Shown here piece after piece: positions 8,280-60,585 of a DNA stretch of 64,000 nucleotides. Position 1 is the stretch's first letter, and every line of letters begins with the position of its first letter. This DNA is from Vulcanimicrobiota bacterium. Lineage in GTDB: Bacteria > Vulcanimicrobiota > JAJTBE01. The position numbers were made by a program, and so were the translations under genes. The notes beneath the pieces are model-generated. The model had not been told where the DNA came from and did no database searches. It saw nothing but the letters and a program-made list of their open reading frames with translations. The DNA lies in NCBI GenBank assembly GCA_021107945.1, contig JAIORV010000155.1, positions 1-64,000 on the forward strand. The letters run 5' to 3'.

Positions 8280-8492
8280 AGAATAAACAAAGAACTTCTG
8301 AGTTCATAAATCGGGAAAATATCCCAAAAAACAACTCCCCAAAATTTTTCAAAATTAATTTCAAAACACACTTAAGTTTTTCTCTCCTCTCCTGTAAATA
8401 GATATGATCCGGATCAAGAAAAGCGAGTCAGGAAATAGGCGAAGCTATAGTGAAAGCATCCCGAAAAACAAAAAAGGCAAGGAGTGGTGAAA

Positions 8493-10628
8493 ATGAATAC
8501 AGATTTCAATGGCAATAACGGCGAATATAACATCTTCATCGCCTGTGGCGGTAGTTTCCAGAAAACAATCGAAGAGGCCGGCAAAATATTTGGAAAATCA
8601 ATGGCCATCTATGTGGACACCGAAAAAGAAGTGAACAAGTGCAAGGCCAAAGATGTTATCAAAGTCAGCCTGGTAGAACACGCCAACACAGAAGAACTGT
8701 GCGGCAACTTCAAGGCTAATGACCGATACAGGGAAGCGGTTAAAAGAATCAACGCAGGACCCGGTATGGACATCGCCAAGGGAGCCGGGCAATACCCACT
8801 GATGGGTGAGATGCAATTTCAATATACCCTGAATAACACCAACCTTAAAAATTACCTGGAAAAAGAGATTACCGACAGGTTATACATGGAAACTCGGGGC
8901 GAGGTTAACAAGGTAAACATCAAGGTTCTTTCAGGCACAGGAGGTGGAGTGGGTTCAGGAACGACAATAGCAATTGTTAACCTGGTCGAAAGCATAGTTT
9001 ATAAATCCACAGGGACAAGGGCGGAAGTCTCCCTGGTCAGAATAGGGGGGCTGTCACACCTTGGCTGCGGTTCACGGGTAATAATGAACACAACCCACAT
9101 CCTGCCAGAGATGAAAGCCTGGGTTAACAACAGGGACGGAAAGGTCAGAGACCCCGGTGAAACCAGGAATGTTTTCCTTCTGGAAACTCCAATGGTCCAG
9201 AAAGACAGGGAGACCAGGGACAAGCTCCACAGAGTAACAGCTTCATCAATGTTCAGCCCAAAAGTAAGCGAAGAGTTCTCCGGTTGCTCAATAAATAATA
9301 ACGATTTTAGCGATTTTGTTTCCAACCCATTCCCGGGTGTCTATACCGTCAGGCCCTGCTACTGGGGAAACCTGGAAATCACTGATATAAAGGCTGCAGT
9401 AGCTGTTCATCTCATCAATATGATTGAACAGGCAGAAAACCGGGACGACGAATCCTCCTCCGGCAGTCCCGTGGAAATCTATGTGGAACTGGAGGAAACA
9501 GATACTAGTATAACAGATTCATCCCTCCTGGCAAATTCCTCCGGGGACAAGAACACCGATGAGCTGGCAGAGTTGGCAAAAGCCACCGGCAAAAGCTACA
9601 GCGCAGGCAACGTATTTGTCAAGGTCAGCAATGACTCGAAGATGCACCTGCGAAGCATCGTATCGGGAAATAAAAAAACAAACCCAAAAAACCTTGGGGA
9701 ATACCATGAGAGGATGCATTTCCTGAATGACATCAGGGCTAATATGGAGGAGCAATTCGAGAAAGCAAGCGATGAGTCATCCCGGAAAGAGATAAAACTC
9801 AAAAAGACCGGCAAGAAGCTGGACAAATGCATAAGAGACATGAGCCAGGAAAGCTTCGCCGTTACCAGGTTCTTTGATTCTGTTTCTTCATTCTTCTCAA
9901 AAAGCCACAACAAAAAGAAGAAGAAAACTTTCAGGGGGAACATCGAAAAATACCGCACGGTCAAAGCGGAGCAGGAGAGGCTCACCGCACTGAAAAACAC
10001 CCTGCGAATGAGTATAAGCTTCATCGAAGTGGAAATCAACAGGCTCAGGGAAAAAATGAACAACCTCACACGGATGTTGGGGAAGGTCAGAAATTCCGGC
10101 AGTATAATCGATCGCAACCTGGTACAGTTGAACGAGGACAACAGGTTTATCGGCAGACTCCTGGAAGCCTCCAGCCTGGGACAGGAAGCCCTCAACGAGG
10201 AGATAGAAAGGACAAGAGCTATAATCACAGAGTATGGAATCAGGAGAATCCTGAATCTGCCCGCTGATGCAACCAACCAACAAGTTGCCTGGAAACTTGT
10301 CCGGGAACAACCCGATATCATCGCTCCATACTGGGGAGGCAAAAGACCCAAGAACAGACCCCTTTTCAACTTCCTGGTGCTCCCGCCCGTCCAGAAGAAG
10401 CTTCAGAATGCATTGCAACAGGAAATAAAGAAACTGGACAGCGACTGGATTGTGGCAAATCGCACTTCAATTTCCGCCGGGATGGAGATCGTAAAAATGG
10501 AATACCATATTGCCACTACACAGGAGGCAGTAATAACTCCCCTCTACCAGCTTCAGCAGAAACACATAAAAGACAACCCCTTCTACCCGCCTTACATACC
10601 CAAGAACGGAGGTGTTGCACATGTTTAA
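8493..10628 (+). CDS. FtsZ/tubulin-like GTPase (VWA-associated family)
   Basis: The 711-residue protein begins with a Rossmann-like strand ending in ACGGSF, and carries the tubulin/FtsZ signature as SGTGGGVGSGT (residues 147-157), the loop that holds the GTP phosphates. The C-terminal half is much longer than in FtsZ and contains charged, coiled-coil-like stretches (about 410-560). FtsZ-like proteins paired with a membrane VWA protein were described by Makarova and Koonin as a distinct FtsZ-tubulin family with a proposed role in membrane remodelling. The next gene overlaps this one by eight bases and is such a VWA protein. The start at 8493 follows AAGGAG with eight-base spacing; a GTG nine bases earlier is less likely. 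This is not the cell-division ftsZ: no division genes are near and the tail lacks the usual FtsA-binding peptide. Confidence 0.8.
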   Translation: MNTDFNGNNGEYNIFIACGGSFQKTIEEAGKIFGKSMAIYVDTEKEVNKCKAKDVIKVSLVEHANTEELCGNFKANDRYREAVKRINAGPGMDIAKGAGQYPLMGEMQFQYTLNNTNLKNYLEKEITDRLYMETRGEVNKVNIKVLSGTGGGVGSGTTIAIVNLVESIVYKSTGTRAEVSLVRIGGLSHLGCGSRVIMNTTHILPEMKAWVNNRDGKVRDPGETRNVFLLETPMVQKDRETRDKLHRVTASSMFSPKVSEEFSGCSINNNDFSDFVSNPFPGVYTVRPCYWGNLEITDIKAAVAVHLINMIEQAENRDDESSSGSPVEIYVELEETDTSITDSSLLANSSGDKNTDELAELAKATGKSYSAGNVFVKVSNDSKMHLRSIVSGNKKTNPKNLGEYHERMHFLNDIRANMEEQFEKASDESSRKEIKLKKTGKKLDKCIRDMSQESFAVTRFFDSVSSFFSKSHNKKKKKTFRGNIEKYRTVKAEQERLTALKNTLRMSISFIEVEINRLREKMNNLTRMLGKVRNSGSIIDRNLVQLNEDNRFIGRLLEASSLGQEALNEEIERTRAIITEYGIRRILNLPADATNQQVAWKLVREQPDIIAPYWGGKRPKNRPLFNFLVLPPVQKKLQNALQQEIKKLDSDWIVANRTSISAGMEIVKMEYHIATTQEAVITPLYQLQQKHIKDNPFYPPYIPKNGGVAHV

Positions 10629-14612: not shown

Positions 14613-15087
14613 GAAGTCTTATGTCCTGGAGAGTTATCGGGAAAAACTCGAGTTCCCATCGCTCATAAGAAAAGTAAAAGAGAAGTATGAATTGGTAAAG
14701 AATAAATACAAATGCTCAATCAAGCTCTTAATTGAAGACAACGGTTCCGGGACTCAGCTTATCCAGACTTTGAAAGCGGAATACCATATTTCTTCCCAGG
14801 CTATAAAGCCCGAGTATGACAAGGCGACACGACTGCAATCAGTCTCACATCTGATAGAAAACGGCTCCTGTCTCTTTCCTAATAATGAGCCCCATTGGTG
14901 GCATGACTTTCTTTATGAGCTTCTGCGCTTTCCCAGGGCCAAACATGATGACCAGTGCGACGCTCTTAGCCAGGCACTGGGAAATAAACCGGAAATTGCC
15001 AGACCCCCGTGTCGCTTGAGAGGACGCAAAAGAATAGATTGGTCTCTACCTTTGGGCTTCGTAAGAGGTGAATTTCAACTGCTATAG
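14613..15087 (+). pseudogene. C-terminal fragment of phage terminase large subunit
   Basis: The reading frame matches the nuclease-domain end of the intact terminase at 58351-59889 at high identity (IEDxGSG, HDDQCDALSQALGNKPEIA). It starts abruptly at about 14613, with no ATPase domain or start codon upstream; TTG at 14692 is the first possible start. Homology to the other copy begins exactly here, marking the boundary of a partial duplication or deletion. Confidence 0.85.
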
Positions 15088-15136: not shown

Positions 15137-15616
15137 ATGAAGAAGAAGATTTACCTACCAAAAACAATGAAGGAGCTGCAATCGCAGGGAAACGACTGGC
15201 TCAAGGAATTATGGATGAGGTATTTCAAGGCTCTGCCGATAATGGCTTGTCCGAGAACGATAAGGACGCTATGGTACAAGATCCAATGTGAGAATCATAA
15301 TCTGCGAATTAAACAGAAGAATATCACCAGGCTGAACCGATATTCAACCGACCCGGACAAGTATATTGAGAAATCATACAAGACCAAGTATCATTTGAGA
15401 AACGGCCTGGAAATTGTGAAGACATACAAGGGTAATCAGTACCGAGTGCTGGTTCGCTCGCCGGGGGAATTTGTCTGCGACAACCAATCCTACAAAACCC
15501 TGTCAGCCGTTGCCAGAGCTATCTGCAACAAGAAGGTCTCCGGCTATGACTTCTTCGGGCTCACCAATAGGCATTATGAAAAGAATATTGTGGAGGATGA
15601 GAAATGCAAAGGATAA
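15137..15616 (+). CDS. DUF2924 protein (copy 1), recombinase partner
   Basis: The 159-residue basic protein carries the DUF2924 hallmarks: an N-terminal LxxLWMRYF helix, a central YxVLV strand and the C-terminal signature SAVARAICNKKVSGYDFFGL. DUF2924 genes are regularly found directly before large serine recombinases in mobile elements, and this one overlaps the recombinase start by 13 bases, so translation is probably coupled. Its role is unknown; a DNA-binding accessory or directionality factor is an inference. It is nearly identical to the copy at 59939-60409, which ends differently. Confidence 0.75.
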   Translation: MKKKIYLPKTMKELQSQGNDWLKELWMRYFKALPIMACPRTIRTLWYKIQCENHNLRIKQKNITRLNRYSTDPDKYIEKSYKTKYHLRNGLEIVKTYKGNQYRVLVRSPGEFVCDNQSYKTLSAVARAICNKKVSGYDFFGLTNRHYEKNIVEDEKCKG

Positions 15617-17520
15617 ACTGCGCCATTTATGTTCGAAAATCCACGGAAAAGGGACTGGAGCAGGAGTTTAATTCCCTTCACAATCAGGAGGAAGCCTGCA
15701 AGAACTACATCCTGTCCCAGGCCTTCAACAGTTGGGAGTACTACAAGACTTATGAGGATGGTGGCATCTCCGGCGGGACGATGAAGCGCCCATCTCTTAA
15801 AAGAATGTTGCATGATATGAAGAAGGGACTTGTTCAGACGGTCGTGGTTTACAAGGTGGACCGCCTTTCAAGGTCCATTATTGATTTTCACAATATGATG
15901 AAAGAGTTCGAGAAGCACAATTGCAGTTTCGTTTCCATCACACAGGCATTCGACACCTCCAATTCTATGGGCAAACTCACCCTCAACATGCTTCTGTCCT
16001 TCGCCCAGTTTGAACGAGAGGTTTCATCGGAGAGAGTCAGGGACAAGATTGCCGCCAGCAAGAAGAAAGGGTTGTGGACGGGGGGTTGCCCGCCGCTGGG
16101 TTATGATCTGTCTGATAAGAAATTGATTCCCAATCCGAAAGAAGCGGAACATGTCAGGTTCATCTTTGAGAAATATCTGGAGGTGAAATCGTTAAGCAAG
16201 TTAAGGGAATTTCTATCGAATACCGATGTGAGAACAAAGAAATGGGTCAGTGAAACCGGCTTTGAGAAAGGTGGAAAGGTATTTTTCTCCTCCATGCTGT
16301 CCCGCCTGCTTCGCTCCAAGGTCTATATCGGCAAAATCGAGAGTAAGAAAGACGGAGTCTCTTACCCGGGAAAACACCAATCCATCATCGACAGGAAACT
16401 CTTTGATCGGGTGCAGTCCCTTATTGACGACAACCGGAATCAGTTTAACAAAGCCTATAACAAAAACGCATATCTTTTGTCCAACAAGATAAGTGACGAT
16501 CGCGGCAATGTATTTAAGAATCAACAATGCTCCAAGAAAAACTCAAGAAAAAGCTTGAAAGTAGGCTCGATAAAATACCGCTATTATGCACTAAAAGGCA
16601 AATATCTGCCCTCAGGCGATGTGGACGAGATTACGACAAAGATTGTCAGGGATCTGCTGGATCATCCCCTGCATAATCTTCTGAGCAGATCCCAGGTCAT
16701 TGAGTTTAAAGCTATAGATTTCCAGTCCCTGACGCCGAACGAGCGGTCGAACCTTATTCGCTCAATGATCAACAGAATAATATATCACAACAACAAGCTG
16801 ACATATTTCATCAAGATTGACGACCTGACTTATCTGAAATCATCCCAGAAGAAGAATTATTTGAACACCACAAATGCCACTACTACATACAATGATAATA
16901 TTGCGAGTACGTCAATTAATGAGGTTTTACCGATTAATCTATCATTGAGATCAATGCAGCACCTAAGAGATAATCCGATGGCGAAAATATCACCACTTAC
17001 GGAGACTGCGATCAATAATGAAGAACATCATAGCATAACAATCGATGCCGACTATCACAACGAAATCGTATGTTATCCCGGCAAGCACAACGAGGCCGGA
17101 ACCCGCCTGAGCAAAGATAATGATGCCATAATTTTTCCGAGCAAAGATGCCCAGGAGTTGATCGTAGAAAAAGAGATTTGCATCAATAACCGCCCTTCAA
17201 CTAACAAATACCTGGGGAGCGGGAAGAAGATGATATCCATCGGGGAGAATTGCGACAACCTCATAAAAGCCCTGAGCACTGGATGGCGTTATGAGAAAAT
17301 GTCACAAAATGGCCAGTCCATAAAGAAAATCGCAGAGGCTGAAAGAATGGCGAAACGGACTGTCTACAAGTACTTGAATCTGAACTACCTCTCACCAAAC
17401 ATTATCAACAGCGTTATGGACAGCGAAGTCCCGACGCACATTAACCTACAGGCACTCTTCAAAATCGCTTCGAAGTATCCCAATTTCAATGATCAGGAAC
17501 GGGTATTCTATGATATTTGA
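15604..17520 (+). CDS. Large serine recombinase (copy 1)
   Basis: The 638-residue protein has the resolvase/invertase catalytic domain (residues about 5-150) with the nucleophile Ser13 in YVRKSTE, VYKVDRLSRS and ERExxSERVRDKI. The recombinase domain follows with GCPPLGYD. The C-terminal region holds a Hin-like helix-turn-helix (SIKKIAEAERMAKRTVYKYL). I see no zinc-ribbon Cys cluster. It would integrate, excise or invert DNA between short att sites. Compared with copy 2 (60586-62343) it has about 50 extra residues between roughly 420 and 510, a divergent linker. RBS GGAGGATGAGAA overlaps the DUF2924 end. Confidence 0.85.
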   Translation: MQRINCAIYVRKSTEKGLEQEFNSLHNQEEACKNYILSQAFNSWEYYKTYEDGGISGGTMKRPSLKRMLHDMKKGLVQTVVVYKVDRLSRSIIDFHNMMKEFEKHNCSFVSITQAFDTSNSMGKLTLNMLLSFAQFEREVSSERVRDKIAASKKKGLWTGGCPPLGYDLSDKKLIPNPKEAEHVRFIFEKYLEVKSLSKLREFLSNTDVRTKKWVSETGFEKGGKVFFSSMLSRLLRSKVYIGKIESKKDGVSYPGKHQSIIDRKLFDRVQSLIDDNRNQFNKAYNKNAYLLSNKISDDRGNVFKNQQCSKKNSRKSLKVGSIKYRYYALKGKYLPSGDVDEITTKIVRDLLDHPLHNLLSRSQVIEFKAIDFQSLTPNERSNLIRSMINRIIYHNNKLTYFIKIDDLTYLKSSQKKNYLNTTNATTTYNDNIASTSINEVLPINLSLRSMQHLRDNPMAKISPLTETAINNEEHHSITIDADYHNEIVCYPGKHNEAGTRLSKDNDAIIFPSKDAQELIVEKEICINNRPSTNKYLGSGKKMISIGENCDNLIKALSTGWRYEKMSQNGQSIKKIAEAERMAKRTVYKYLNLNYLSPNIINSVMDSEVPTHINLQALFKIASKYPNFNDQERVFYDI

Positions 17521-19668: not shown

Positions 19669-20685
19669 CTATGAAAGGATTTGATCTTTTTCTGGGGTGA
19701 TCAAATCAAATAACAGATCGCCCTCCTCATCAATATCCAGGGAAATCCTCTCCCCCTCTTTCACATTCATCCTTGAAACACCGGAGTTTACGAATTTTCG
19801 CACTATCTTTTTGACCTTCCTGGCCCCCTCTTCCTGTGAAAATGCCGTCCTAGCCAGAACTCTCTTCGCAATATCGGATACCTCAATGCTAATCCCCATA
19901 TCTTCTTCAAGAGATCTTATTTCAATATCAAAGAGCTTTTCTATGTCTCCGGCATTTAAACTGTGGAAAGTCACGATATTTGAAAGTCTCCCCAGGAATT
20001 CCGGGGGAAAATATTGCCTGGCTGCCTGGAAAAACTTTTTCTTTTCATCGCCGGATATACCCCGATCTTTTCGAAATCCCACGCTTTCTTCTTCTTTCCT
20101 GTTGCCAAGATTGGAAGTCAAAATTACTATTGAATGTCTGAAATCGGCCTTGAGCCCGCTCTGATCGGTCAGAGAACCTTCGTCCATTATTTGAAGTAAA
20201 ATAGTATAAATATCAGGATGGGCCTTTTCAATTTCATCAAAGAGAACAAGAGAGTAAGGATTTTTTCGGACATTCTCAGTCAGAACTCCGCCTTCCTGGA
20301 ATCCAATATATCCGGGAGGCGCTCCAATGAGCTTGGACTTGGTATGGGATTCGCTCAATTCAGAACAGTCGATTCTGACCATCCTTTTCTTATCTCCGAA
20401 GTGAGCTTCTGCCATGACCTTTGCCATTTCGGTTTTCCCACAACCGCTCGGACCAATGAAAAGAAAAGAACCCATAGGCTTATAGAGATCACTTTTCACC
20501 CTCCGGGCGCTGAGATGGTCCAGCACGGTTCTCTTTGCTTCCTCCTGCCCCACTATCTTTTCCTGTAATGCTTTCTCAAGGGCAGAAAGGTTTCCCTCTC
20601 CCGATCTTACCCTGATCCTTTCAACAGGGATCCCGGTCTTTTCCGATACAATTTCCAAAATAGCCTTTTCGAAAAGTTCTGTCAT
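19669..20685 (-). CDS. ClpB/ClpA-type AAA+ D2 protein (split unfoldase, C-terminal half)
   Basis: The 338-residue protein corresponds to the second AAA+ module of ClpA/ClpB alone. It has Walker A GPSGCGKTE (78-86), pore loop GAPPGYIGF with Tyr126, Walker B LVLFDEIEKAH (Asp150-Glu151), sensor TSNLG, an arginine-finger region PPEFLGRL, and a ClpB-like small C-terminal domain. No D1, N-domain or IGF/L ClpP-docking loop is evident, so disaggregase-like rather than ClpP-linked action is more likely. It overlaps the D1 gene by four bases. I infer that D1 and D2 proteins assemble as a two-ring unfoldase acting on conjugates made by the E1/E2 enzymes of this operon. It is the last gene of the operon. 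Confidence 0.8.
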   Translation of the reverse strand: MTELFEKAILEIVSEKTGIPVERIRVRSGEGNLSALEKALQEKIVGQEEAKRTVLDHLSARRVKSDLYKPMGSFLFIGPSGCGKTEMAKVMAEAHFGDKKRMVRIDCSELSESHTKSKLIGAPPGYIGFQEGGVLTENVRKNPYSLVLFDEIEKAHPDIYTILLQIMDEGSLTDQSGLKADFRHSIVILTSNLGNRKEEESVGFRKDRGISGDEKKKFFQAARQYFPPEFLGRLSNIVTFHSLNAGDIEKLFDIEIRSLEEDMGISIEVSDIAKRVLARTAFSQEEGARKVKKIVRKFVNSGVSRMNVKEGERISLDIDEEGDLLFDLITPEKDQILS

Positions 20686-22007
20686 TTCCTTTCACTCCAT
20701 TTCTTCAGCAATTCGTTTAGCCTCTTAGCCGTAGCATAATCCCCTTCCTCAATAGCTTGCTCTATCTCTCTTTTAATATCTTCAATAGAATCCGCAGGCT
20801 GACCGACTTTGCTCATCTTACTCGTTTCCATACTCACTCTTGCGGCCGCCTCGTCAATCAATCCCAGAGCCTTGTCGGGAAAAGACCTATCCAGGAAGTA
20901 ATACCCGGACACATCAATGGCCATTTGCAGAATTTCATCGGGAATCTCGATCCCGTGGTGATCCTCCAGGTCAGCTCTCAGCCCCTCTAATATCTGCAGG
21001 GTCTCTTCTTCATTTGGTTCATTCACGATTATCTTTTCAAATCGCCTGCTCAACGCTCCATCAGTCTCAATTTTCCTGAAATCCCTTGGAGTGCAGGCGG
21101 CGATTACCCTCATGCCTCCCCTGGCAAGAGCGGGTTTTAATATCTCAACAACCGGGATATCTCCGCGGGCACCAAGCAGGCTTTGAAGCTCGTCAAAGAA
21201 GATTACCAGATGAGGATTGCTCTCCGCCTCTTCAATTATTTCCTTGATTCTATTTTCCACTTCTCCCTTGATCCCGGCCCCGGCCATCAGGTAGCCAGAA
21301 TTTATTTCGATAATCCGGATCCGTTTCAAGGAAGGGGGCACTTCAGCTTTCACAATTCTCTGCGCCAGGCCATATACTATAGTGGACTTTCCAGTACCGG
21401 AATTTCCAACCAAAACTGCGTTGGGCTTTTCTTTTTTGGAGAGAATAACCAGGAGACTTTCCATTTCCCTCTTTCTTCCAATCACGGCGGGAAGTTTCCC
21501 TTCCCTTGCCATCTTTGTGAGATCCCTTCCAAACCGGGACATCTTGAAATCTCTTTCTTTTTCTTCTTTGGGAATCTCGTAAACAAACCGGCCCTTTCTT
21601 GGCATTTCCAGAGCCTTTCCATCCAAGCCCAGAATGGAATCAATCCCGCTGAGGGCTTCCGGCAACTTGGGGGGCGAATCATTGGCAATGATTAGCTTCT
21701 GTCTAAATAATCTTAATCCACTGTGAAAGTCTCCCTTTATCCTCGCTACAAATCGCGTTTTGCCGGGTTGTACAGCGCCACCCTGGATAGATTGCCATTC
21801 CTGGTTTCTTCCCCTATATTGCACATTGCTTCCGATGTACACTTCACAGAGATTTCCGTTCACTCCAAGAAAAACTACGTCAGTTTGAGGCGGCTCGAAA
21901 ACATCTGGCAAGGAAATCGAACTCAAGACGACGAGTCCATTCTGAGTAAATTCCTTTGACAAAGTATTAAAGAGGATGGGATCATTTATGAAAATATCAA
22001 ATGCCAT
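20682..22007 (-). CDS. ClpB-type AAA+ D1 protein with unusual N-domain (split unfoldase)
   Basis: The 441-residue protein has an N-terminal region (about 1-115) unlike the Clp N-domain and not recognised by me, then a ClpA/B D1 module. DLTKMAREGKLPAVIGR is the classic entry motif, Walker A is GNSGTGKST (201-209), and Walker B is LVIFFDELQSL. The D1 pore loop, normally with an aromatic residue before Arg-Gly, reads GIKG. The end has an M-like/UVR-like helix (IEEGDYATAKRLNELL). The start at 22007 follows AAGGAGG; a longer frame reaches 22049. With the D2 gene it rebuilds a ClpB-like enzyme in two pieces. The N-domain is the probable substrate-recognition element, perhaps for the conjugated tag. 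Confidence 0.8.
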   Translation of the reverse strand: MAFDIFINDPILFNTLSKEFTQNGLVVLSSISLPDVFEPPQTDVVFLGVNGNLCEVYIGSNVQYRGRNQEWQSIQGGAVQPGKTRFVARIKGDFHSGLRLFRQKLIIANDSPPKLPEALSGIDSILGLDGKALEMPRKGRFVYEIPKEEKERDFKMSRFGRDLTKMAREGKLPAVIGRKREMESLLVILSKKEKPNAVLVGNSGTGKSTIVYGLAQRIVKAEVPPSLKRIRIIEINSGYLMAGAGIKGEVENRIKEIIEEAESNPHLVIFFDELQSLLGARGDIPVVEILKPALARGGMRVIAACTPRDFRKIETDGALSRRFEKIIVNEPNEEETLQILEGLRADLEDHHGIEIPDEILQMAIDVSGYYFLDRSFPDKALGLIDEAAARVSMETSKMSKVGQPADSIEDIKREIEQAIEEGDYATAKRLNELLKKWSERK

Positions 22008-22578
22008 GTCTTGCCTCCTTGTAAGGTAAGTATTCACGCCCGGCCACAACCTTTATTGGAGAGTAGCAAACCCTGAGTCCCTCTCTTTCAACCGCCCAGG
22101 GCCATATGACAGGGACATCGTCAGGGTCGAAAGTGATAATCGGAGAGAAGAATCTCTTCATTTCGGGATTGTAATCAAATACAGCCTCAATATATCCCAG
22201 GTCTCCCTTTGCAAATCCGGCCTTTTTGCTGAGAAAACCGTTCCAATGAGTAGGATGAGAGTGGATGTCTCCTACCCATATATGCGAATCTTCGATTCGC
22301 AGCCAGAATGCAAGCCTATGATTTCCCCAGTCTGAGTCCGGGCGGAAGACAGATTCACCTGAACCAGAATTATCAAATTCGAACACATCAATGCCTTCCT
22401 GTCCCTTTGGTCCCCAGAGTTTACCTCCAGATTCAGACGGCATATTGCCGATCGTTTCAAGAAGGTGGTTCAATGCCCATTTCGTAATGAAAACAGGAGG
22501 CCCAATCGGGAACCCATTATCTCCGGCTACTCGAAAACTACGCACTTTGTCGATCACCAACCTTTCTTTTATTGTCAC
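21997..22578 (-). CDS. JAMM/JAB (MPN+) metalloprotease, soluble
   Basis: The 193-residue protein carries a JAMM zinc site: Glu49 in SESGGKLWG, His106-x-His108 in GDIHSHP, and Asp126 in KGDLGYI, with Ser117 between. The spacing from the HxH to the Asp is longer than the textbook S-x2-D. JAMM enzymes remove ubiquitin-like proteins or process tag precursors in bacterial E1/E2 operons. It lacks a signal peptide or membrane segment. GTG start at 22578. It overlaps the D1 unfoldase gene by 11 bases and follows the E1 gene by 13 bases. It is clearly paralogous to the JAMM domain at 23564-25042. Confidence 0.8.
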   Translation of the reverse strand: MTIKERLVIDKVRSFRVAGDNGFPIGPPVFITKWALNHLLETIGNMPSESGGKLWGPKGQEGIDVFEFDNSGSGESVFRPDSDWGNHRLAFWLRIEDSHIWVGDIHSHPTHWNGFLSKKAGFAKGDLGYIEAVFDYNPEMKRFFSPIITFDPDDVPVIWPWAVEREGLRVCYSPIKVVAGREYLPYKEARHGI

Positions 22579-22591
22579 CGATGAATTCTTC

Positions 22592-23473
22592 TCATGAAGG
22601 CTTTCCTAGGCATACCGGGCAATTGGGGTCAAATTCCGTCTTAAGCCAAACCGAATCCATTGAAAATAGCATGGATTTAATTTCCCGGGCATAGTCCCTG
22701 GGTTGCACCGGAAGATCACCCAAAATTGCGTCCCATACCATATTTCCCCAGAGATATTCGGGCGAGCACCTTACCATAATATCGTTTCGAAAATCCATCT
22801 CCCGGAAGAATTTGCCCATTAATGAATCTTGCCTCCGCTCCAGGATGGCTACCGAGACTTTGAGGGCAATCATATCAATGAATTGACAGTCAATGATGGA
22901 TCCCCTGGCACCGTGAAGATCGGTTGTTAAATCGCCCTGGCTCTTGAATTCCTGGAATCTTTCCCTGGCGATACACCGGTAGCAAGGCGTGATTCCTGGA
23001 ATTGTCCACACTATACGTCCGCCAAGTGCTCCAATGTGAACACCGATAAAAATTGCAGGAATATTATAGGCAACACTTAGATCGTTCAGTAAAGCCTGAG
23101 CTTTGAACTGGTCGGTACCAGCAATAATCAGGTCTGCTCCATTGACCAATTCCTGGATTTCGTCTCCGTCCATCTGGCAGATGTCCTTTCGAAATCTCTT
23201 AACCTTTACGTCAGGATTAATTTCCTCGATTCTTTTTCCAAGAGCGTCAACCTTGTATTGTCCAATGTCCTTCATTGTATAAACGGTTCTTGAAAGATTG
23301 GATATTTCAACTGTATCCATATCTCCAATGCGAATCTCCGCAGGACAAAGTCGGGCAAGTTTCTCTGTTGCATAACTCCCGGCTCCCTGGCCCACCACGG
23401 TAATCACCTTTTCGTGGAATTCCCTGGAGACAATCCCTTCCAGCCTGCTAATGTATTCTTTCATTGTATCCAT
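22592..23473 (-). CDS. ThiF/E1-like adenylating enzyme
   Basis: The 293-residue protein has the E1 superfamily nucleotide loop VGQGAGS (28-33), the catalytic Asp51 and Arg62 of DMDTVEISNLSRT, the GTD motif (Asp121), and a zinc site formed by CYRC (164/167) and CPVC (285/288). These mark an enzyme that adenylates the C-terminus of a ubiquitin-like protein or peptide and may take it as a thioester. Like Prok-E1 proteins in JAB/E2 operons it has no rhodanese or UFD domain. Neighbours on both sides are JAMM proteases. The start at 23473 has an ATG nine bases downstream as an alternative. Confidence 0.85.
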   Translation of the reverse strand: MDTMKEYISRLEGIVSREFHEKVITVVGQGAGSYATEKLARLCPAEIRIGDMDTVEISNLSRTVYTMKDIGQYKVDALGKRIEEINPDVKVKRFRKDICQMDGDEIQELVNGADLIIAGTDQFKAQALLNDLSVAYNIPAIFIGVHIGALGGRIVWTIPGITPCYRCIARERFQEFKSQGDLTTDLHGARGSIIDCQFIDMIALKVSVAILERRQDSLMGKFFREMDFRNDIMVRCSPEYLWGNMVWDAILGDLPVQPRDYAREIKSMLFSMDSVWLKTEFDPNCPVCLGKPS

Positions 23474-23563
23474 TTCATTTCACAATCCTTTACATCCAGA
23501 CAATATCTTGCGCAGGATACCCTGGCAGAAGATTCTCAGAACTTGTGCATATGCAAACTATTA

Positions 23564-25042
23564 TTAAGGCTTTATTCTCTTTCTGAAAGCCAGCAATGCG
23601 ATGGTTATCAACACCAGAACAATCAGGCACCACGCGGGCAGAGTATTATCCCAAAATAGTCCTCCAAATGCCAAAAGGTTCTTATTGATCCACAGAACAT
23701 AGAACTGCGCTATGCGCTCAAGCCAGGTAGGCTGGACAAATGAGATTGTCAAGATGCTTGTCAACGCCACAATAATCCCAATCAAAGTGGAAAAAATGGT
23801 CAATGATGGGAAGGTGTCCAGGGAATCCAATGCATCTTGGGACTTGCTCCAGAGCCCTTTCAGGCGAGGGAGAATTGAACGATCTTGAGCAAGAGCCTGA
23901 CAGGCGTCTTCATTGGAATCAGATTCATGTTTTGGTAGAGGTTTACTCGGAGGTTCCTCTCCCTTATTCGAGGAATCAACTTGAGAAGGTTCATATGAGG
24001 GAGATTGTCTATGGCGCCCACGAGTTTCTGGATTAGAGGGAAAATTTGAATCGGAAATAGCTGTAAAACTGGACATGCTTCTCAATCCCCAGGGAAAATA
24101 GGCATTCAACGACTTGAATATTGCAAGAGCATCAATTAAAGGTAAAACGGGTTGGTAAGGTTGAGAAATTGAAATATTGATATTAATAGGCTGAATGATC
24201 TCTTGCTTTCCCGATTTATCGCAGGAATTCTCATTTACAATCCCTGTCGGTTCTGCATGTCGCTCCTCTTCATTAGAAACTCTGGCTTCCTCTACGATTG
24301 ACTCCTTGTACTCATCGGAGATCCCTGTCCCGGTGGTATTATCTCGATTGGGAAAGGAATCCCGGGTTACAGTCTCTTCGGTTACAATATCTTTTTTGCT
24401 TTCAAGTTCTTTCTCCCAATATGGATTATAAATTCTTTCTGGAAATTTGTCAGCCTTACATACTACGAGTTCTGCAAAATATAATTCAGGCGGATTCCCG
24501 CGCCTGCAAATCCAGGGCCATAGCCTGGGAATCTTGCCTTTTCCGGTATTTGTCAGTATCGGCAGAGCAAAAAACTCCATCCATTCATTCTGCCTGAAGA
24601 CCTCCTCCACATACCCCATGTCCCCAAGACCTTCTCCAGATTTACTGGACGGACGACCAAATTTTTTACCAGGGTGGGTGTGGATGTCGCCGTTCCAGAC
24701 CCGCATAATGGTCTCCGGAACATCGAGATGGTAGTGTACCCTTTCTGAACCCCAATCTTTATCCGGGGCATATACAACCCCATTAGCTTGTCGGGAGCCA
24801 TTGATGTCAAATTCAATCCGATCAAAACCCATCAGGTCTTTTGGACCGAAACCCTTTGCCCCGGTTTCGGGGGGAAGTTTTCCGACGGTTAATAGCAGTT
24901 CCCTTATAGCTTCATTCGTAAAGCACATGGGCAATGGGGACTTTTCCACTTTACTGCCCAGGATATTTCTGGCATCCTCAAGCGAGGCAATCTGGAACTC
25001 CGGGCAATCAGCAAAGCAATTATTGCTTGAGTCACTACTCAC
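23564..25042 (-). CDS. Membrane-anchored JAMM/JAB metalloprotease
   Basis: The 492-residue protein has an N-terminal JAMM domain (about 35-210) with Glu59 in PPETGAKGF, His121-x-His123 in GDIHTHP and Asp141 in LGDMGY. A long low-complexity hydrophilic linker follows (about 225-405, Ser/Asn/Pro/Glu-rich, with a VPLI-like hydrophobic island). Two membrane segments end the protein (about 408-432 and 450-485) with a basic RKRIKP tail. GTG start follows GGAGGAAG. The design places a deconjugating or tag-processing protease at the membrane. It is paralogous to the soluble JAMM two genes downstream. Whether the catalytic domain faces the cytoplasm is inferred from the lack of a signal peptide. Confidence 0.8.
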   Translation of the reverse strand: MSSDSSNNCFADCPEFQIASLEDARNILGSKVEKSPLPMCFTNEAIRELLLTVGKLPPETGAKGFGPKDLMGFDRIEFDINGSRQANGVVYAPDKDWGSERVHYHLDVPETIMRVWNGDIHTHPGKKFGRPSSKSGEGLGDMGYVEEVFRQNEWMEFFALPILTNTGKGKIPRLWPWICRRGNPPELYFAELVVCKADKFPERIYNPYWEKELESKKDIVTEETVTRDSFPNRDNTTGTGISDEYKESIVEEARVSNEEERHAEPTGIVNENSCDKSGKQEIIQPININISISQPYQPVLPLIDALAIFKSLNAYFPWGLRSMSSFTAISDSNFPSNPETRGRHRQSPSYEPSQVDSSNKGEEPPSKPLPKHESDSNEDACQALAQDRSILPRLKGLWSKSQDALDSLDTFPSLTIFSTLIGIIVALTSILTISFVQPTWLERIAQFYVLWINKNLLAFGGLFWDNTLPAWCLIVLVLITIALLAFRKRIKP

Positions 25043-25057
25043 CAGCGCTTCCTCCTT

Positions 25058-25432
25058 TCAGGGGGGATTGGGAAATTTTCCCGATTCCATAAGAATGCTA
25101 AAGCATTGACACCAATAACGGGCTCTATAGAGCGCAGAAGAGAAATCTGGCTGATCCATACCAAGATCAATCAATCCGTCATATCGCAAATGTGAAGTTT
25201 GATATGAGTAAGGGTTTTCGCCCCAGGGATTGTAAATACAATATGCCCTGGCCTGTTCTCCATTGGGAGATGCCTTAATCTCGATCCGATAAATTCGCCC
25301 ATCGGAGTCAGTGAAGTCTTCAATGAAACATAGAATTCCGTCCTCAATGCCGATCAAGGCATTGGGATTAAGGCCCTTCATTTTTTCAATGATCTTATGT
25401 TGAACATCTACTCCATCACTTGTGGGTTCCAT
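25058..25432 (-). CDS. E2-like protein lacking the catalytic Cys (UEV-like paralogue)
   Basis: The 124-residue protein is a clear paralogue of the next upstream gene: NPNALIGIE, the RIYxIEIKASP strand, YNPWGENPYSY, SHLRYDGLIDLG and RARYWCQCFSILMESG all align. At the position of the candidate catalytic Cys80 of the paralogue this protein has Asp89, and it also lacks a ten-residue loop downstream. The UBC-like reading rests on the order strand, proline-rich loop, His motif, Cys site, helix. If correct, it resembles eukaryotic Cys-less E2 variants that act as partners of active E2s. RBS GAGGAG. It lies 15 bases before the membrane JAMM gene. Confidence 0.6.
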   Translation of the reverse strand: MEPTSDGVDVQHKIIEKMKGLNPNALIGIEDGILCFIEDFTDSDGRIYRIEIKASPNGEQARAYCIYNPWGENPYSYQTSHLRYDGLIDLGMDQPDFSSALYRARYWCQCFSILMESGKFPNPP

Positions 25433-25474
25433 TTCTGCTCACTCCTCATTCAGGATTCCCTGATAACTAATATA

Positions 25475-25843
25475 TCATGGATCGGGGAACTCCCCGGATT
25501 CCATTAAGCGGCTAAAAGCTGTGCACCAGTAACGGGCACGAAGGATTGCTGTCTCCACATCCATGGGAGAAGAATAAAGGTCCTTATGAACATCATTTCC
25601 AAGGCACAAGAATTCATCTTCATGCAAATGGGACTCTATATAGGAATACGGATTCTTGCCCCAGGGATTGTAACGGCAGAATCCGATTGCCTTTTTTCCA
25701 TCGGGAGTGGCCTGGATCTCGATCGAGAACATCCTTCCATCAGGATCTATGACATGCTCAACCATGCAAATTCGGCCATCGCTTTCTATACCGATAAGTG
25801 CATTTGGATTTAACTCCTTCATTATTTCTGAAGCTTTGCTCAT
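25475..25843 (-). CDS. E2-like (UBC-fold) conjugating protein, candidate catalytic Cys80
   Basis: The 122-residue protein has an E2-like order: a strand-rich N-terminal half ending in YNPWGKNPYSY, a His-containing turn SHLHEDEFLCLG with Cys80 where E2s place the thioester cysteine, and a C-terminal helix with RARYWCTAFSRLMES. Overall similarity to UBC proteins is weak, so the assignment depends on motif order and on the E1 and two JAMM neighbours. Cys107 is shared by both paralogues and is more likely structural. The start at 25843 follows GGAAAGGAGG; a longer frame to 25924 adds a basic stretch without an SD. It would pass an activated tag from the E1 to a target. Confidence 0.6.
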   Translation of the reverse strand: MSKASEIMKELNPNALIGIESDGRICMVEHVIDPDGRMFSIEIQATPDGKKAIGFCRYNPWGKNPYSYIESHLHEDEFLCLGNDVHKDLYSSPMDVETAILRARYWCTAFSRLMESGEFPDP

Positions 25844-25977
25844 GTTTATCCTCCTTTCCAAAGGTAGGGGAAAAGGGTGGCAGAATATTATGGGTTTGCG
25901 TCTTTTATTCCGCCACCCGATCATCCCATAGCGGCCCCTTACCGAATATGCCCGGGTGGGACCTCCTTGCGAGCCTT

Positions 25978-26172
25978 CTATAAGGCTTCTGGATCCACGT
26001 GATATTCGCCCGATGGCACAGATTGGCGCGCCTGCCTCAGGGCTTCAGCGTCAACGTGATACTCTCCACTAGGAACACTCTGACGAGCTCTCCTCAACGC
26101 TTCAGCATCCACTGCATAAGCCCCCTCAGGCACGACCACACCAACTGCGAGCAGATCTTTCCTTCCTACCAT
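25978..26172 (-). CDS. 64-residue tandem-repeat peptide of the ubiquitin-like operon
   Basis: After a short leader (MVGRKDLLAVGVV) the peptide consists of two full 19-residue units and one partial unit of the form VPSGEYHVDAEALRQARQS, ending HVDPEAL at the stop. The second and third units spell the same residues with different codons (for example Ser as AGT in one and TCG in the other, Pro CCT/CCA, Asp GAC/GAT), so the protein sequence and not the DNA is being conserved. It has no C-terminal Gly-Gly and does not look like a beta-grasp ubiquitin. The start at 26172 follows AAAGGAGG. As the first substantial gene before E2, JAMM and E1, it is a candidate tag, substrate or multi-core precursor. 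Confidence 0.65.
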   Translation of the reverse strand: MVGRKDLLAVGVVVPEGAYAVDAEALRRARQSVPSGEYHVDAEALRQARQSVPSGEYHVDPEAL

Positions 26173-26286
26173 ATTCACACCTCCTTTCATTATTATAAAC
26201 ACTATATAGGTGAAAATCTTGCACCGGGATTCCTCGAATTTATTTAAGAGATTCTGAGCAGAGAACATTTAGCTGTGAACAGATTT

Positions 26287-26343
26287 TCAAGCTGAGATTT
26301 CCAGGTTCTCAGCATCTACTTCGAACTTCTTCAAAATCGCCAC
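26287..26343 (-). CDS. Tiny leader ORF repeating the FEVDAENLxxxA motif
   Basis: An 18-codon frame (GTG at 26343; alternative TTG at 26332-26334 with a better distance to AAAGGAG, giving 15 codons) encodes a peptide containing KKFEVDAENLEISA. This matches the YxVDAEALxxA core of the repeats in the peptide gene 115 bases downstream. It lies directly behind a likely promoter. Such a short match could be chance, but its place as the first frame of the operon argues for a mini-tag or minimal substrate. Confidence 0.4.
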   Translation of the reverse strand: MAILKKFEVDAENLEISA

Positions 26344-26368
26344 TCTCCTTTATAAATTCCTATGTCCC

Positions 26369-26374
26369 ATTTTA
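26369..26374 (-). promoter_or_regulatory. Extended -10 promoter of the ubiquitin-like operon
   Basis: On the minus strand TGCTAAAAT gives an extended -10 element with TAAAAT at 26374-26369. Transcription would start about 20 bases before the tiny ORF. I see no clear -35 element, which extended -10 promoters can lack. Confidence 0.4.
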
Positions 26375-56608: not shown

Positions 56609-57943
56609 ATGTCAAACCAAAATTTGAGGGTTGAATACGTTACCATGGAAAGTATAACACCATACACAAATAATCCGAGAATCCATAAGAACAAGCAAAT
56701 AAGGCAGATTGTGAACTCGATCAAGGAGTTTAGTTTTAATAATCCCATCTTGATTGATGAGGATAATGTCATTATTGCCGGTCATGGCCGCCTTCTGGCC
56801 GCTGAGCACTTGAACCTTCTCAAGGTTCCGGTGATAAGATTGACACACCTTACGGAAGCTGAGAAGAAGGCGTATCGCCTTGCTGATAACAAGCTCACTG
56901 AGAACGGCGAATGGGATGTTGATTTGCTGAAACTTGAACTTGTAGAGATTGAAAAGCTTGAACTCGATTTTTCTCTTGATATAACCGGGTTTGATACTGC
57001 AGATATTGATTTGATGCTTGACAACAGCCTGGCCGACAAGGAGATTAAGATAGACGAAAAGGCCAATGCGGTTCCCTTCATCCCAAAAAATGAAGTGATA
57101 TCGGAGACCGGCTGGGTATGGCAGTTGGGCAAACATCGGGTCATCTGCGGCAATGCCATTGAGAAGGAATCTTATACTCGCCTGTTTGCTGATAAAAAAG
57201 CGGATATGGTATTCACTGACCCACCATATAATGTTCCGGTCCATGGTCATATATGCGGAAACGGTAAGGTTAAACATTCTGAGTTTAAAATGGCCTCCGG
57301 CGAAATGTCGCCGGAAGAATTCCAACTGTTTCTCTCTTCCAATTTCATCCTGTTAAAAGAGTTCTCTAAAAACGGGTCTCTTGTTTTCATCTGTATGGAC
57401 TGGAGGCATATCAGGGAAATCATTAATGCCGAGACTGAAGTCTTTGAGGAGTTCAAGAACCTTTGCGTCTGGAATAAAGACAACGGGGGAATGGGAAGCC
57501 TTTACCGTTCAAAACACGAACTCATTTTCGTTTTCAAGAATGGCAGAAGACCCCACAAAAACAATGTTGAGCTGGGTTCCCATGGCCGATACCGCACCAA
57601 CGTTTGGGACTATCCGGGAGTCAACTCATTCAGCGGCGATAAGGACAAACTGAAGATGCACCCCACGGTGAAGCCGGTGGAGATGATTAGGGACGCCATT
57701 CTGGACGTAACAAACCGCGGCAACATTGTGCTGGACAGCTTCCTGGGCAGCGGCTCCACACTTATCGCTGCCGAACAGGCAAGCAGGATTTGTTACGGCA
57801 TTGAGTTGGAACCTCTATACGTGGACACAACCATCCGACGATGGCAGGAGCTTACCGGCAAGTCCGCAGTTCACGTGGGAACCGGCAAAACATACCGGGA
57901 ATTGCTTGAAATTCATCTGATAGAAGAAAACAATGAAAAGTAA
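56609..57943 (+). CDS. ParB-like domain / DNA adenine methyltransferase fusion
   Basis: The 444-residue protein starts with a ParB-type nuclease-like domain (TPYTNNPRIHKNKQIRQI, IIAGHGRLLAAEHL; about 8-95) and ends with an N6-adenine methyltransferase core: DPPY at about 204 and the SAM-binding FLGSGSTLIAA at about 375, the beta-class order. Such fusions are common in prophages and mobile elements, marking or protecting element DNA. RBS AGGAGAG. Its end overlaps the DUF5681 gene. Confidence 0.85.
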   Translation: MSNQNLRVEYVTMESITPYTNNPRIHKNKQIRQIVNSIKEFSFNNPILIDEDNVIIAGHGRLLAAEHLNLLKVPVIRLTHLTEAEKKAYRLADNKLTENGEWDVDLLKLELVEIEKLELDFSLDITGFDTADIDLMLDNSLADKEIKIDEKANAVPFIPKNEVISETGWVWQLGKHRVICGNAIEKESYTRLFADKKADMVFTDPPYNVPVHGHICGNGKVKHSEFKMASGEMSPEEFQLFLSSNFILLKEFSKNGSLVFICMDWRHIREIINAETEVFEEFKNLCVWNKDNGGMGSLYRSKHELIFVFKNGRRPHKNNVELGSHGRYRTNVWDYPGVNSFSGDKDKLKMHPTVKPVEMIRDAILDVTNRGNIVLDSFLGSGSTLIAAEQASRICYGIELEPLYVDTTIRRWQELTGKSAVHVGTGKTYRELLEIHLIEENNEK

Positions 57944-58361
57944 TCAATACGAAATAGGTTACGGCAAGCCTCCCAAAGACCATCAATTTAAGCCGGGAGA
58001 GTCGGGCAACAATAAGGGACGCCCCAGGGGGAGTAAAAACACTTATACCATCCTCAATGAAATCCTGAACCAGAAGATTACAATAAAGGAAAATGGGGAA
58101 ACGATGAGGATTTCAAAAAAAGTAGCCATGCTCATGCAGCTTGTCAACAAGGGAGTGAAAGGAAATATCAGAGCTATTCAGACCTTGTTTCCCCATCTGA
58201 TATTTGCGGATATGAAAGAGGAAGAAATGAAAAGAATCTTGACCGCCCTGAACACGGATGACCGGACAATCATCAATACATATTTGTCCAACATGTTTTT
58301 ATCCAACCAGGACGGTTTGAAAATCATAGCGGAGGATGAGGATTGTGAAGATGACAACTAA
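57933..58361 (+). CDS. DUF5681 protein (putative small terminase role)
   Basis: The 142-residue protein has the DUF5681 opening VGYGKPP-like (IGYGKPPKDHQFKPGESGNNKGRPRGSKN) and a helical remainder. The family sits between methyltransferase and terminase large-subunit genes in prophage-like clusters and is thought to take part in DNA packaging recognition. It overlaps both neighbours (11 bases and 11 to 26 bases). Confidence 0.75.
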   Translation: MKSNQYEIGYGKPPKDHQFKPGESGNNKGRPRGSKNTYTILNEILNQKITIKENGETMRISKKVAMLMQLVNKGVKGNIRAIQTLFPHLIFADMKEEEMKRILTALNTDDRTIINTYLSNMFLSNQDGLKIIAEDEDCEDDN

Positions 58362-59889
58362 TGAAGAGAAGCGGCTCTTTAAAGCCGTATTGCGAGAGAT
58401 TTTCAAACCTTTCGTCAACAAGGTTTTTAACGAGGTTTCTCCAAATGACGAATACCTGGATAACTGGCATATTGACGTTATCTGCCATCATCTAATGAGG
58501 GCCTCCGATGAAAATAACGATGAAAATCGGCTGATCATCAATGTCCCGCCACGCTATATGAAATCCATTATCTGCTCCGTCGCCTATCCCGCCTTCATCC
58601 TGGGACATAATCCCAAAGTCAATATTATATGCGTAAGTTATTCCGACGAACTGGCCGAGAGGTTTGCGCTAGACTGCAAACGGGTGATGGAAACCGCATG
58701 GTATAAAGACCTGTTTCCTAAAACTGTGATAGCTCGGGATAAAAAAGCAGTCGGCGATTTCACCACCACCAGAGGAGGAGGGCGCTACGCTACATCTGTC
58801 AACGGAACTTTGACCGGGCGGGGTGGGGATTATATCATAATTGACGATCCAATGAAGCCGATAGAAGCCCTTTCCGACACCTTGAGAGATAAGACCAACC
58901 AGTGGTATGGCCACACGCTCTATTCCCGTCTCAATAACAAGAACACGGGTAAGATCATCGTCATCATGCAAAGGCTTCACGATGAAGATTTTACAGGATA
59001 CCTGCTTGATACCGATCCTAGATTCAAGCATATCAAGATACAGGGCATAGCGGAGCAGGATGAAGAATGGATTATTGAAGACCGCCCCACGGGCAGACGG
59101 AGGATAATCATAAGAAAACAGGGTGAAGCTCTCCACCCCGCCAGGGAAAATCTTGCCGAGCTTCAAAATACAAGAAAAACTAATGGGGAGTATAATTTTG
59201 CCGGACAATATCAGCAGAACCCTGTTCCACGGGAAGGAGCGATTATCAAGAGTGACTGGCTCCAATATTATGACCCGGAAGAATTGAAAAAGGGGCTGGA
59301 AGACGGAAGCATTAAGCCCCACTGTGTTGTGCTGTCCTGGGATACGGCCAATAAAGTGGAAGAGCATAACGACTATTCCGCCTGTGTCACAATATTGTTC
59401 GACATGCAAAAAAAGTCTTACGTCCTGGAGAGTTATCGGGAGAAGCTCGAGTTCCCATCGCTCATAAGAAAAGTAAAAGAGAAGTATGAAGTGGTAAAGA
59501 ACACATACAAATGCCCAATCAAGCTCTTTATTGAAGACAAAGGTTCCGGGATTCAACTTATCCAGACTTTGAAAAATGAATATAAAATCTATCCACAAGC
59601 TATAAAGCCCGAATACGACAAGGCCACGCGTTTGCAATCGGTTTCCTACATGATAGAAAACGGCTCCTGTCTTTTTCCCAATAATGAACCCCATTGGTGG
59701 CATGACTTTCTTAATGAGCTTCTGCGCTTTCCAAAAGCCAAGCATGACGACCAATGCGACGCATTGAGCCAGGCGCTGGGAAATAAACCGGAAATTGCCA
59801 GAGCCCCGTGTCACTTGCGAGGACGTCGTAAGAGAATAGACTGGGATAGAGCTTTGGGTTTCGTAAGAGATGAATATCAACTGCAATAG
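58351..59889 (+). CDS. Phage terminase large subunit
   Basis: The 512-residue protein has an atypical Walker A VPPRYMKSI, a Walker B region IIIDDPMKP and the RNase-H-like nuclease with LSWDTA, LFIEDKGSG and AKHDDQCDALSQAL. This is the Terminase_6-like arrangement of an ATP-driven packaging motor with a nuclease domain. The start at 58351 follows GAGG; another lies at 58336. It is the intact form of the fragment at 14613-15087. No portal, capsid or tail genes follow. Confidence 0.85.
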   Translation: MTTNEEKRLFKAVLREIFKPFVNKVFNEVSPNDEYLDNWHIDVICHHLMRASDENNDENRLIINVPPRYMKSIICSVAYPAFILGHNPKVNIICVSYSDELAERFALDCKRVMETAWYKDLFPKTVIARDKKAVGDFTTTRGGGRYATSVNGTLTGRGGDYIIIDDPMKPIEALSDTLRDKTNQWYGHTLYSRLNNKNTGKIIVIMQRLHDEDFTGYLLDTDPRFKHIKIQGIAEQDEEWIIEDRPTGRRRIIIRKQGEALHPARENLAELQNTRKTNGEYNFAGQYQQNPVPREGAIIKSDWLQYYDPEELKKGLEDGSIKPHCVVLSWDTANKVEEHNDYSACVTILFDMQKKSYVLESYREKLEFPSLIRKVKEKYEVVKNTYKCPIKLFIEDKGSGIQLIQTLKNEYKIYPQAIKPEYDKATRLQSVSYMIENGSCLFPNNEPHWWHDFLNELLRFPKAKHDDQCDALSQALGNKPEIARAPCHLRGRRKRIDWDRALGFVRDEYQLQ

Positions 59890-59938
59890 TTGACTTTTCC
59901 TTCATTGTAAGCGTTACTTGTGTTGAGGAAGGATAGCA

Positions 59939-60409
59939 ATGAAGAAGAAGATTTACCTGCCAAAGACAATGAATGAGCTGCAATCGCTGGGAAACGACTG
60001 GCTCAAGGGATTATGGATGAGGTATTTCAATGCCCCACCCATAATGGCTTGTCCGAGGATGATAAGGACGCTATGGTACAAGATCCAGTGTGAGAATCAT
60101 AATTTGCGCATCAAACAGAAGAATGTCACCAGGTTGAACCGCTATTCAACCGATCCGGACAAGTACATTGAGAAGTCATACAAGACCAAATATCATTTGA
60201 GAAACGGCCTGGAAATTGTGAAAACATACAAGGGCAGACAGTACCGGGTTCTTGTCCGCTTCCCGGGGGAATTTGTCTGCGACAACCAATCTTACAAAAC
60301 CCTGTCGGCTGTTGCCAGAGCTATTTGCAACAAGAAGGTCTCCGGATATGACTTCTTCGGGCTTAACAATAAGTGTATGAGAAATAGCAAAGCGGGAAGT
60401 TCTCAATGA
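59939..60409 (+). CDS. DUF2924 protein (copy 2)
   Basis: The 156-residue protein is almost identical to the copy at 15137-15616 through the SAVARAICNKKVSGYDFFGL signature, then ends differently (NNKCMRNSKAGSSQ). A roughly 180-base insertion separates it from the recombinase, breaking the overlap seen in copy 1. Confidence 0.75.
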   Translation: MKKKIYLPKTMNELQSLGNDWLKGLWMRYFNAPPIMACPRMIRTLWYKIQCENHNLRIKQKNVTRLNRYSTDPDKYIEKSYKTKYHLRNGLEIVKTYKGRQYRVLVRFPGEFVCDNQSYKTLSAVARAICNKKVSGYDFFGLNNKCMRNSKAGSSQ

Positions 60410-60567: not shown

Positions 60568-60585
60568 ATGGCTGGAGGATGAGAA

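Follow-up and report, generated by a model that had tools for sequence, protein, structure and literature searches.

Within the window analyzed here, the 64,000 nucleotides spanning positions 1 to 64,000 of contig JAIORV010000155.1 from a Vulcanimicrobiota bacterium, eight genes on the minus strand (26172-19669) form a compact operon for a short tandem-repeat peptide, two E2-like proteins (E2a, E2b), an E1-like adenylating enzyme, two JAMM proteases (JAB1, JAB2) and two AAA+ proteins (D1, D2). It is proposed, tentatively and as somewhat less than an even prospect, that E1, E2 and JAMM constitute a conjugation module acting on the repeat peptide and not on a beta-grasp ubiquitin-like protein (Ubl). 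The peptide is regarded as the candidate substrate because, in the Bil system, a JAMM protease trims the Ubl, which E1 and E2 then transfer to give the conjugated product (PMC11354881), and because peptide, E2, JAMM and E1 are the minimal set common to all loci in which the peptide occurs.

Operon organization

A previous sequence-only reading had listed the E1, the two E2-like paralogues, the two JAMM proteins, the D1 and D2 AAA+ proteins and the repeat peptide, tightly packed on the minus strand, and all of these are present. The genes are assigned to one operon because the gaps are short, the pairs at its end (JAB1/D1 and D1/D2) overlap, and Shine-Dalgarno sequences precede most of the genes. 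Three start positions were revised with respect to the first reading, namely those of the peptide (26172, Shine-Dalgarno sequence AAAGGAGG), E2a (25843) and D1 (22007). The features are as follows, with the evidence for each in brackets; L030 denotes the second locus described below.

26287-26334, minus strand: micro open reading frame (ORF) with TTG start, MKKFEVDAENLEISA, of uncertain status (ORF list, read by eye)
25978-26172, minus strand: repeat peptide, 64 residues up to a TAG codon (ORF, periodicity, substitution counts, homologue in L030)
25875-25918, minus strand: perfect 13-bp hairpin in the gap between peptide and E2a (hairpin analysis)
25475-25843, minus strand: E2a, E2-like, catalytic motif HLHEDEFLCLG (alignment, structure model, profile comparison)
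25058-25432, minus strand: E2b, E2-like paralogue without the cysteine (DGLIDLG), possibly akin to ubiquitin E2 variants (UEV) (alignment)
23564-25042, minus strand: JAB2, JAMM protease with a low-complexity linker and two C-terminal transmembrane helices (alignment)
22592-23473, minus strand: E1-like adenylating enzyme of the ThiF/MoeB/UBA5 type, two CxxC pairs (Pfam, PDB)
21997-22578, minus strand: JAB1, soluble JAMM protease (alignment, PADLOC)
20682-22007, minus strand: D1, N-domain plus ClpB-type first nucleotide-binding domain (NBD1), truncated middle domain (ClpB match)
19669-20685, minus strand: D2, ClpB/ClpA-type NBD2 (ClpB match)

Recurrence of the cassette

No relatives were found in 149 genomes of the window's own phylum, nor among 388 relatives. 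A scan of 84,980 genomes with the JAMM motif GDxGYxExV[FY] returned 22 loci, 20 of them chance matches and two genuine. The first of the two (JABTUV010000006.1, L030) encodes the peptide, two E2s, both with the cysteine, one JAMM, an E1 and a single AAA protein; the cassette is directly followed by a protein with two transmembrane segments, which may take the place of the transmembrane portion of the window's JAB2. The frame of the L030 E1 (L030 3242-4171) is disrupted by two compensating frameshifts, so that either the sequence is in error or the gene has recently become a pseudogene. The second (JAUSFB010000030.1, L013) is evidently a decayed remnant, in which an E2 lacking the cysteine and a JAMM that carries a coiled coil and a transmembrane segment are all that is left.

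A profile built from four JAMM members then led to two Planctomycetota genomes at 4e-13 and 2e-10 (L080 and L081) and to a third at 2e-5 (L082), the phylum label being that of the genome at the center of the search (L018). L080 and L081 carry a JAB:E1 fusion (47% mutual identity) and a short E2 with the pattern H...G...YVCW. Their repeat peptides lay outside the query, these loci having been found by the JAMM profile alone. The order peptide-E2-JAMM-E1 is thus seen in three of the four peptide loci, the window, L030 and L081 (as peptide-E2-JAB:E1 in the latter), which answers the earlier call for a search for the same gene order in other genomes; in L080 the peptide and E2 are located on the opposite strand, within 4 kb. 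Likewise, the repeat peptide, which had been noted in the place of a beta-grasp protein, turned out to be a recurring and conserved partner of E1, E2 and JAMM in all four.

Among plasmids, phages and viral contigs, no relatives of the peptide-E2-JAMM-E1 family were detected, and E1 queries of these sets returned only generic ThiF/MoeB proteins and CBASS Cap2. Two faecal "phage" records (MT839708 and MT836827) encode homologues of JAB and E1 but were set aside, as they possess no repeat peptide.

The repeat peptide

The window peptide consists of the repeats MVGRKDLLAVGV-VVPEGAYAVDAEALRRARQS-VPSGEYHVDAEALRQARQS-VPSGEYHVDPEAL followed by TAG. This in-frame codon (25978-25980) breaks a fourth repeat-like stretch, and the frame goes on as KARKEVPPGHIR to a TAA at 25939-25941. 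Since the downstream frame is still repeat-like (KARKEVPPG) and the genome has no PylS, the TAG is probably recent or an error; read-through by pyrrolysine was rejected on the same absence of PylS. The repeat period is 19 residues, and equal periodicity was obtained in none of 100,000 shuffles. Comparison of the three full repeats gave synonymous differences of 0.64-0.95 and nonsynonymous differences of 0.19-0.29, while two repeats of L030 differ by seven synonymous changes and zero nonsynonymous ones; purifying selection acts on the repeats. The micro-ORF just upstream of the window peptide echoes its VDAEAL motif.

The core common to the four peptides is [VIT]PxGx[YF], with histidine as the next residue in most copies. 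It appears as VPEGAYAV, VPSGEYHV (twice) and VPPGHIR in the window and as VPRGAYCV, TPTGEYHV (twice) and TPTGEYHW in L030, whose peptide is 73% identical to that of the window; the peptides of L080 and L081 are MLQKQKQKMIPAWRDVVPEGTFHGEDVVPPGTFHGEDVVPPGTFHGEDVVPPGTFHAG and MLMSTPSSPPHAGIDVIPRGIFAAGEPEKNHSDSSDKDEIPPGTFHGESSDKDEIPPGTFHVL, respectively. Across the loci the repeat unit measures 11-26 residues and the peptide 60-140 amino acids, and in all four the first repeat deviates from the later ones. Strong matches to the peptide in the window and L030 genomes are confined to this locus. When all fetched loci (605 kb, duplicates included) were scanned for two PxGx[YF] within 45 residues or fewer, only the four peptide genes and the N-terminus of the L080 JAB:E1 protein (LPQGRFY) were recovered. 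The L030 peptide (L030 5970-6100, minus strand) ends in a zinc-knuckle-like tail, CWNCGGFHPPQHC, which the other peptides do not have.

A stable hairpin immediately follows the peptide gene in four of four loci (z of -2.0, -2.2, -3.9 and -4.3), with stems of 13 bp in the window, 12 in L030, 13 in L081 and 11 plus a T-run, that is, a terminator, in L080. Such an element suits a product required in excess over the enzymes encoded downstream.

A FlgM-like anti-sigma peptide was considered as the identity of the product and rejected: the Pfam match (3.2e-5 in the window, just short of the cut-off) is far weaker in L030 (0.047) and is lost altogether in L080 and L081, so that it is taken as a local resemblance of the repeat. 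This match would have suited an ordinary E1-E2-JAMM system, served by a beta-grasp Ubl encoded elsewhere in the genome, with the peptide as an accessory regulator. Systems such as CBASS Cap2/Cap3 do attach a protein other than a dedicated Ubl; however, the peptide is the first gene, the position of the Ubl in Bil-type operons, and it recurs in four loci, which together with the fading FlgM match makes this arrangement quite improbable. Family searches gave no beta-grasp or Ubl match for the operon products; short, divergent Ubls can escape such searches, and no genome-wide Ubl search was made.

The E1-like enzyme

The E1 matches ThiF in Pfam (1.7e-33) and in the PDB (3.7e-12) and shows signatures of the family, namely the glycine-rich nucleotide site, GDxDxVExSNLxR, the lysine and aspartate of the adenylation site, and the CxxC zinc pairs. 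K74, D121, C164/C167 and C285/C288 are unchanged in L030. The adenylation site, whose absence had been named as fatal to the conjugation reading, is therefore in place. In a tree of 16 rows, with E1s of ThiF, MoeB, UbaA and Cap2 as comparison set, the window, L030, L080, L081 and L082 lie on one side of a branch with support of 84/80. This grouping of the peptide loci with L082, an E2-E1-JAMM locus without visible peptide, is suggestive and of moderate strength. The four peptide-bearing E1s alone do not form one side of any branch.

Among the PDB matches are also MccB, weakly (5e-5), and PaaA, both ThiF-fold enzymes that adenylate peptides. This relationship invites a different assignment, in which the peptide itself is the product of a maturation resembling that of ribosomally synthesized and post-translationally modified peptides (RiPPs). 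The E1 would activate the precursor as MccB does, the E2-like proteins would modify or cyclize the repeats, the JAMMs would excise the cores, and the AAA and membrane parts would serve export or immunity. A multi-core precursor gene in first position, followed by hairpin or terminator and then by enzymes, agrees with it, as do the nearly identical repeats. Yet RiPP cores usually vary and these repeats are constant, neither a transporter nor a leader peptidase is seen, and an E2-like protein with conserved catalytic cysteine in the company of JAMMs belongs to a conjugation system; maturation of this kind, although the other serious interpretation, is considered unlikely.

The E2-like pair

E2a and E2b are 58% identical, and of the two only E2a has kept the catalytic cysteine in its LCL motif (HLHEDEFLCLG versus HLRYDGLIDLG in E2b). 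The two E2-like paralogues described earlier are thus both in the operon, with E2b devoid of the catalytic residue. A loop of the form H-x5-G/E-x2-C-L/W/Y followed by a helix is shared by E2a, both L030 E2s and L082, and occurs with a three-residue insertion in L080 and L081; E2b and the L013 E2 do not have the cysteine pattern of this loop. At least one E2 retains the cysteine in every complete locus.

The structure model of E2a (pLDDT, the predicted local distance difference test score, of 84.7) has a helix, four strands, the Cys loop and a long helix, which is the order of the ubiquitin-conjugating (UBC) core. Foldseek against the PDB gave nothing significant for this model (best E 0.79), with no UBC among the matches listed. 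A first profile comparison with nine Prok-E2_B domains was limited to the catalytic loop (P 0.0035), whereas after addition of the E2s of the new relatives hhalign aligned 115 columns with a score of 27.2 (P 0.0011), the maximum among 60 column shuffles being 16.9. As to the UBC fold, on which the earlier interpretation had been made to depend, the outcome is mixed: the confident model and the full-length alignment above shuffles speak for it, and the structural search gave no significant match; the pair is regarded as E2-like with fair confidence.

The C-terminal tails of the E2s in the window (25058-25843) and L030 (5038-5888), SGEFPDP, SGKFPNPP, TGEFPNPG and TGTFPGL, resemble the [ST]GE[YF] of the peptide core. 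It can be envisaged from the [ST]GxF shared by tails and repeats that the peptide is a multivalent scaffold, its repeats being a docking motif that gathers E1, E2, JAMM or AAA, or that is read by the AAA N-domain. The modifier would then be another protein, or E1 and E2 would act on each other. The LPQGRFY start of the L080 fusion and the varying C-termini of the peptides are in line with this; the E2 tails of L080 and L081, on the other hand, bear no repeat-like motif, the hairpin or terminator suggests a peptide in excess of the enzymes, and E1 and E2 are left without a substrate, so that a scaffold is judged rather unlikely.

JAMM proteases and AAA proteins

JAB1 and JAB2 are paralogues, both with HxHP...S...GD, which is invariant across the alignment of the four relatives, with an insertion between S and D. 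The JAMMs of L080-L082 have a compact HxHP...SxxD and score above the Prok-JAB cut-off. The assignment to this family is consistent with a PADLOC JAB match at 5e-5 and with the retrieval, by the window-type profile, of Planctomycetota proteins exceeding the Pfam Prok-JAB cut-off. The reported combination of a soluble and a membrane-anchored JAMM holds for the window but is particular to it, L030 having one.

D1 matches residues 135-443 of ClpB (NBD1) and D2 residues 529-847 (NBD2); the two AAA modules of an HSP100 protein, with Walker A/B motifs and pore loops, are therefore present, but as two separate ORFs, between which most of the middle domain is missing. By eye, D1 has a pore loop GIKG in contrast to the usual KYRG, and D2 carries a VGF tripeptide in the region of the loop by which ClpC docks ClpP. 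The N-domain of D1 is common to the AAA protein of L030, which joins it to an NBD2 module. Beta-grasp and nuclease folds were considered for this domain and dropped, the model being poor (pLDDT 53) and Foldseek hence meaningless. The split ClpB, previously counted as part of the system, does not generalize: it exists at this locus only, as L030 has a single AAA protein and L080 and L081 have no Clp. The unfoldase is an accessory component.

Relation to known systems

The E1, E2 and JAB families are already known (Iyer 2006, PMC1779556; Kaur 2020, PMC7159879; Bil; CBASS), and the repeat peptide is undescribed in these sources. In the open-licence papers covered, which do not include the main Bub papers, no description of this combination or of such a repeat peptide was found. 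Bil operons are similarly compact and likewise combine a small gene in first position with those for E1, E2 and JAMM; their small protein, however, is the double beta-grasp BilA, and their E1 contains an additional adenylation domain and a Cys domain, whereas here a repeat peptide, a short ThiF-type E1 and, in the window and L030, an added HSP100 are found. Class 6e, composed of a polyUbl, an inactive E2/RWD and a JAB:E1 fusion (PMC1779556), shares the fusion with L080 and L081, the tandem-repeat small protein and the E2-fold protein; its repeats, however, are folded Ubl domains as opposed to the 11-26 residues here, and its E2-like protein is inactive as opposed to at least one Cys-bearing E2 here. 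Type II CBASS (an E2-E1 fusion, Cap2, and the JAB Cap3) has the same active-site loop, PHVERDGVLCL versus HLHEDEFLCLG, and a JAMM-type partner, but no CD-NTase or effector is present here and the E1s separate in the tree.

In FtsH-ternary conflict systems with a Ubl tri-ligase, E1, E2 and JAB are coupled to an AAA+ ATPase, as in this operon, and to a separate peptide-processing system, FxSxx-COOH (PMC7159879); the EAD1-fused Ubl, RING E3, MoxR-vWA and FtsH found there are all missing from it. Microcin C7 MccB is a precedent for adenylation of a short peptide by a ThiF-type enzyme, but it operates without E2 or JAMM and its product is an antibiotic. With Pup and UBact the likeness would be that a short, non-beta-grasp peptide is the tag for an AAA machine; Pup differs in being ligated by PafA and not by E1/E2, and no PafA or Mpa/ARC-type ATPase family was identified among the operon products. 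Pup is the known unfolded tag, and its ligase is unrelated to E1 and E2. The E1-E2 pathways described so far pass on folded beta-grasp proteins.

Proposed pathway

Conjugation of the peptide, as proposed at the outset, would proceed in the following steps. The peptide would be overproduced, the hairpin or terminator separating its gene from those of the enzymes. A JAMM would cut the precursor at the Gly conserved in every [VIT]PxG, yielding units with a C-terminal Gly, which E1 would adenylate and hand to the E2 Cys, using the sites seen in both proteins, while the paralogue that lacks the Cys would assist in the manner of a UEV. E2 would then join the peptide to a target. In the window version, the split HSP100 would act on tagged proteins near the membrane-anchored JAMM, and the JAMMs would strip off the tag, in keeping with the tag, conjugate, unfold and deconjugate scheme of the first reading, which stands as an inference. 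The purpose would probably be a stress or conflict response. A bolder and more doubtful version makes these systems a class of their own, with a short peptide released from a tandem [VIT]PxGx[YF]H precursor as modifier; such a tag would join beta-grasp Ubls and Pup/UBact as a third kind and would, in one lineage, be coupled to a dedicated HSP100.

Several observations weigh against a peptide modifier. The C-termini of the peptides are inconstant and have no fixed Gly (...EAL, or ...HIR past the TAG, ...VELSVH, ...FHAG and ...FHVL). The window peptide is interrupted by a TAG in a genome without PylS, and this copy may be decaying. C236 is the sole non-zinc Cys common to the E1s of the window and L030 and is replaced by Met in L080 and L081; by eye, no such Cys is conserved across all loci, hence there is no universal candidate for a thioester. 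The repeat-like E2 tails are as compatible with a docking motif as with a tag. In L082, on a short contig of 6 kb, E2, E1 and JAMM are present but no peptide is visible, and every locus checked comes from a draft genome.

If the peptide is indeed the modifier, it would represent a new kind of tag, and an E1-E2-JAMM cascade whose substrate is a linear repeat, about 11-26 residues long, would uncouple ubiquitination chemistry from the fold, in a very small and testable conjugation system. The family libraries searched do not capture a peptide so short and divergent, and such loci may therefore have been overlooked as incomplete.

Genomic surroundings

A DUF2924 protein and a serine recombinase are encoded next to the system in the window (15137-17520), with a terminase fragment at 14692-15087, and a similar-looking pair is present in L013 (7172-8000); phage-like elements are the probable vehicle of the cassette, and this mobile-element setting is the sole pointer toward a role in anti-phage defence. 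A second phage-like block of the window (56609-62343), with ParB-DNA methylase, terminase, DUF2924-like protein and serine recombinase, resembles the block at 14.7-17.5 kb. The L080 peptide locus is adjoined by a PP2C-type phosphatase and two vWA-like proteins (L080 3128-6395), the L081 operon by a WD40-repeat protein of 1325 amino acids. A Tubulin_2 protein (PF13809) is located within roughly 10-20 kb of the operon both in the window (8484-10628) and in the genome of L030 (L035 7975-10764), with MoxR-AAA and vWA-like genes additionally in L034; this vicinity may be due to chance or to a shared conflict island.

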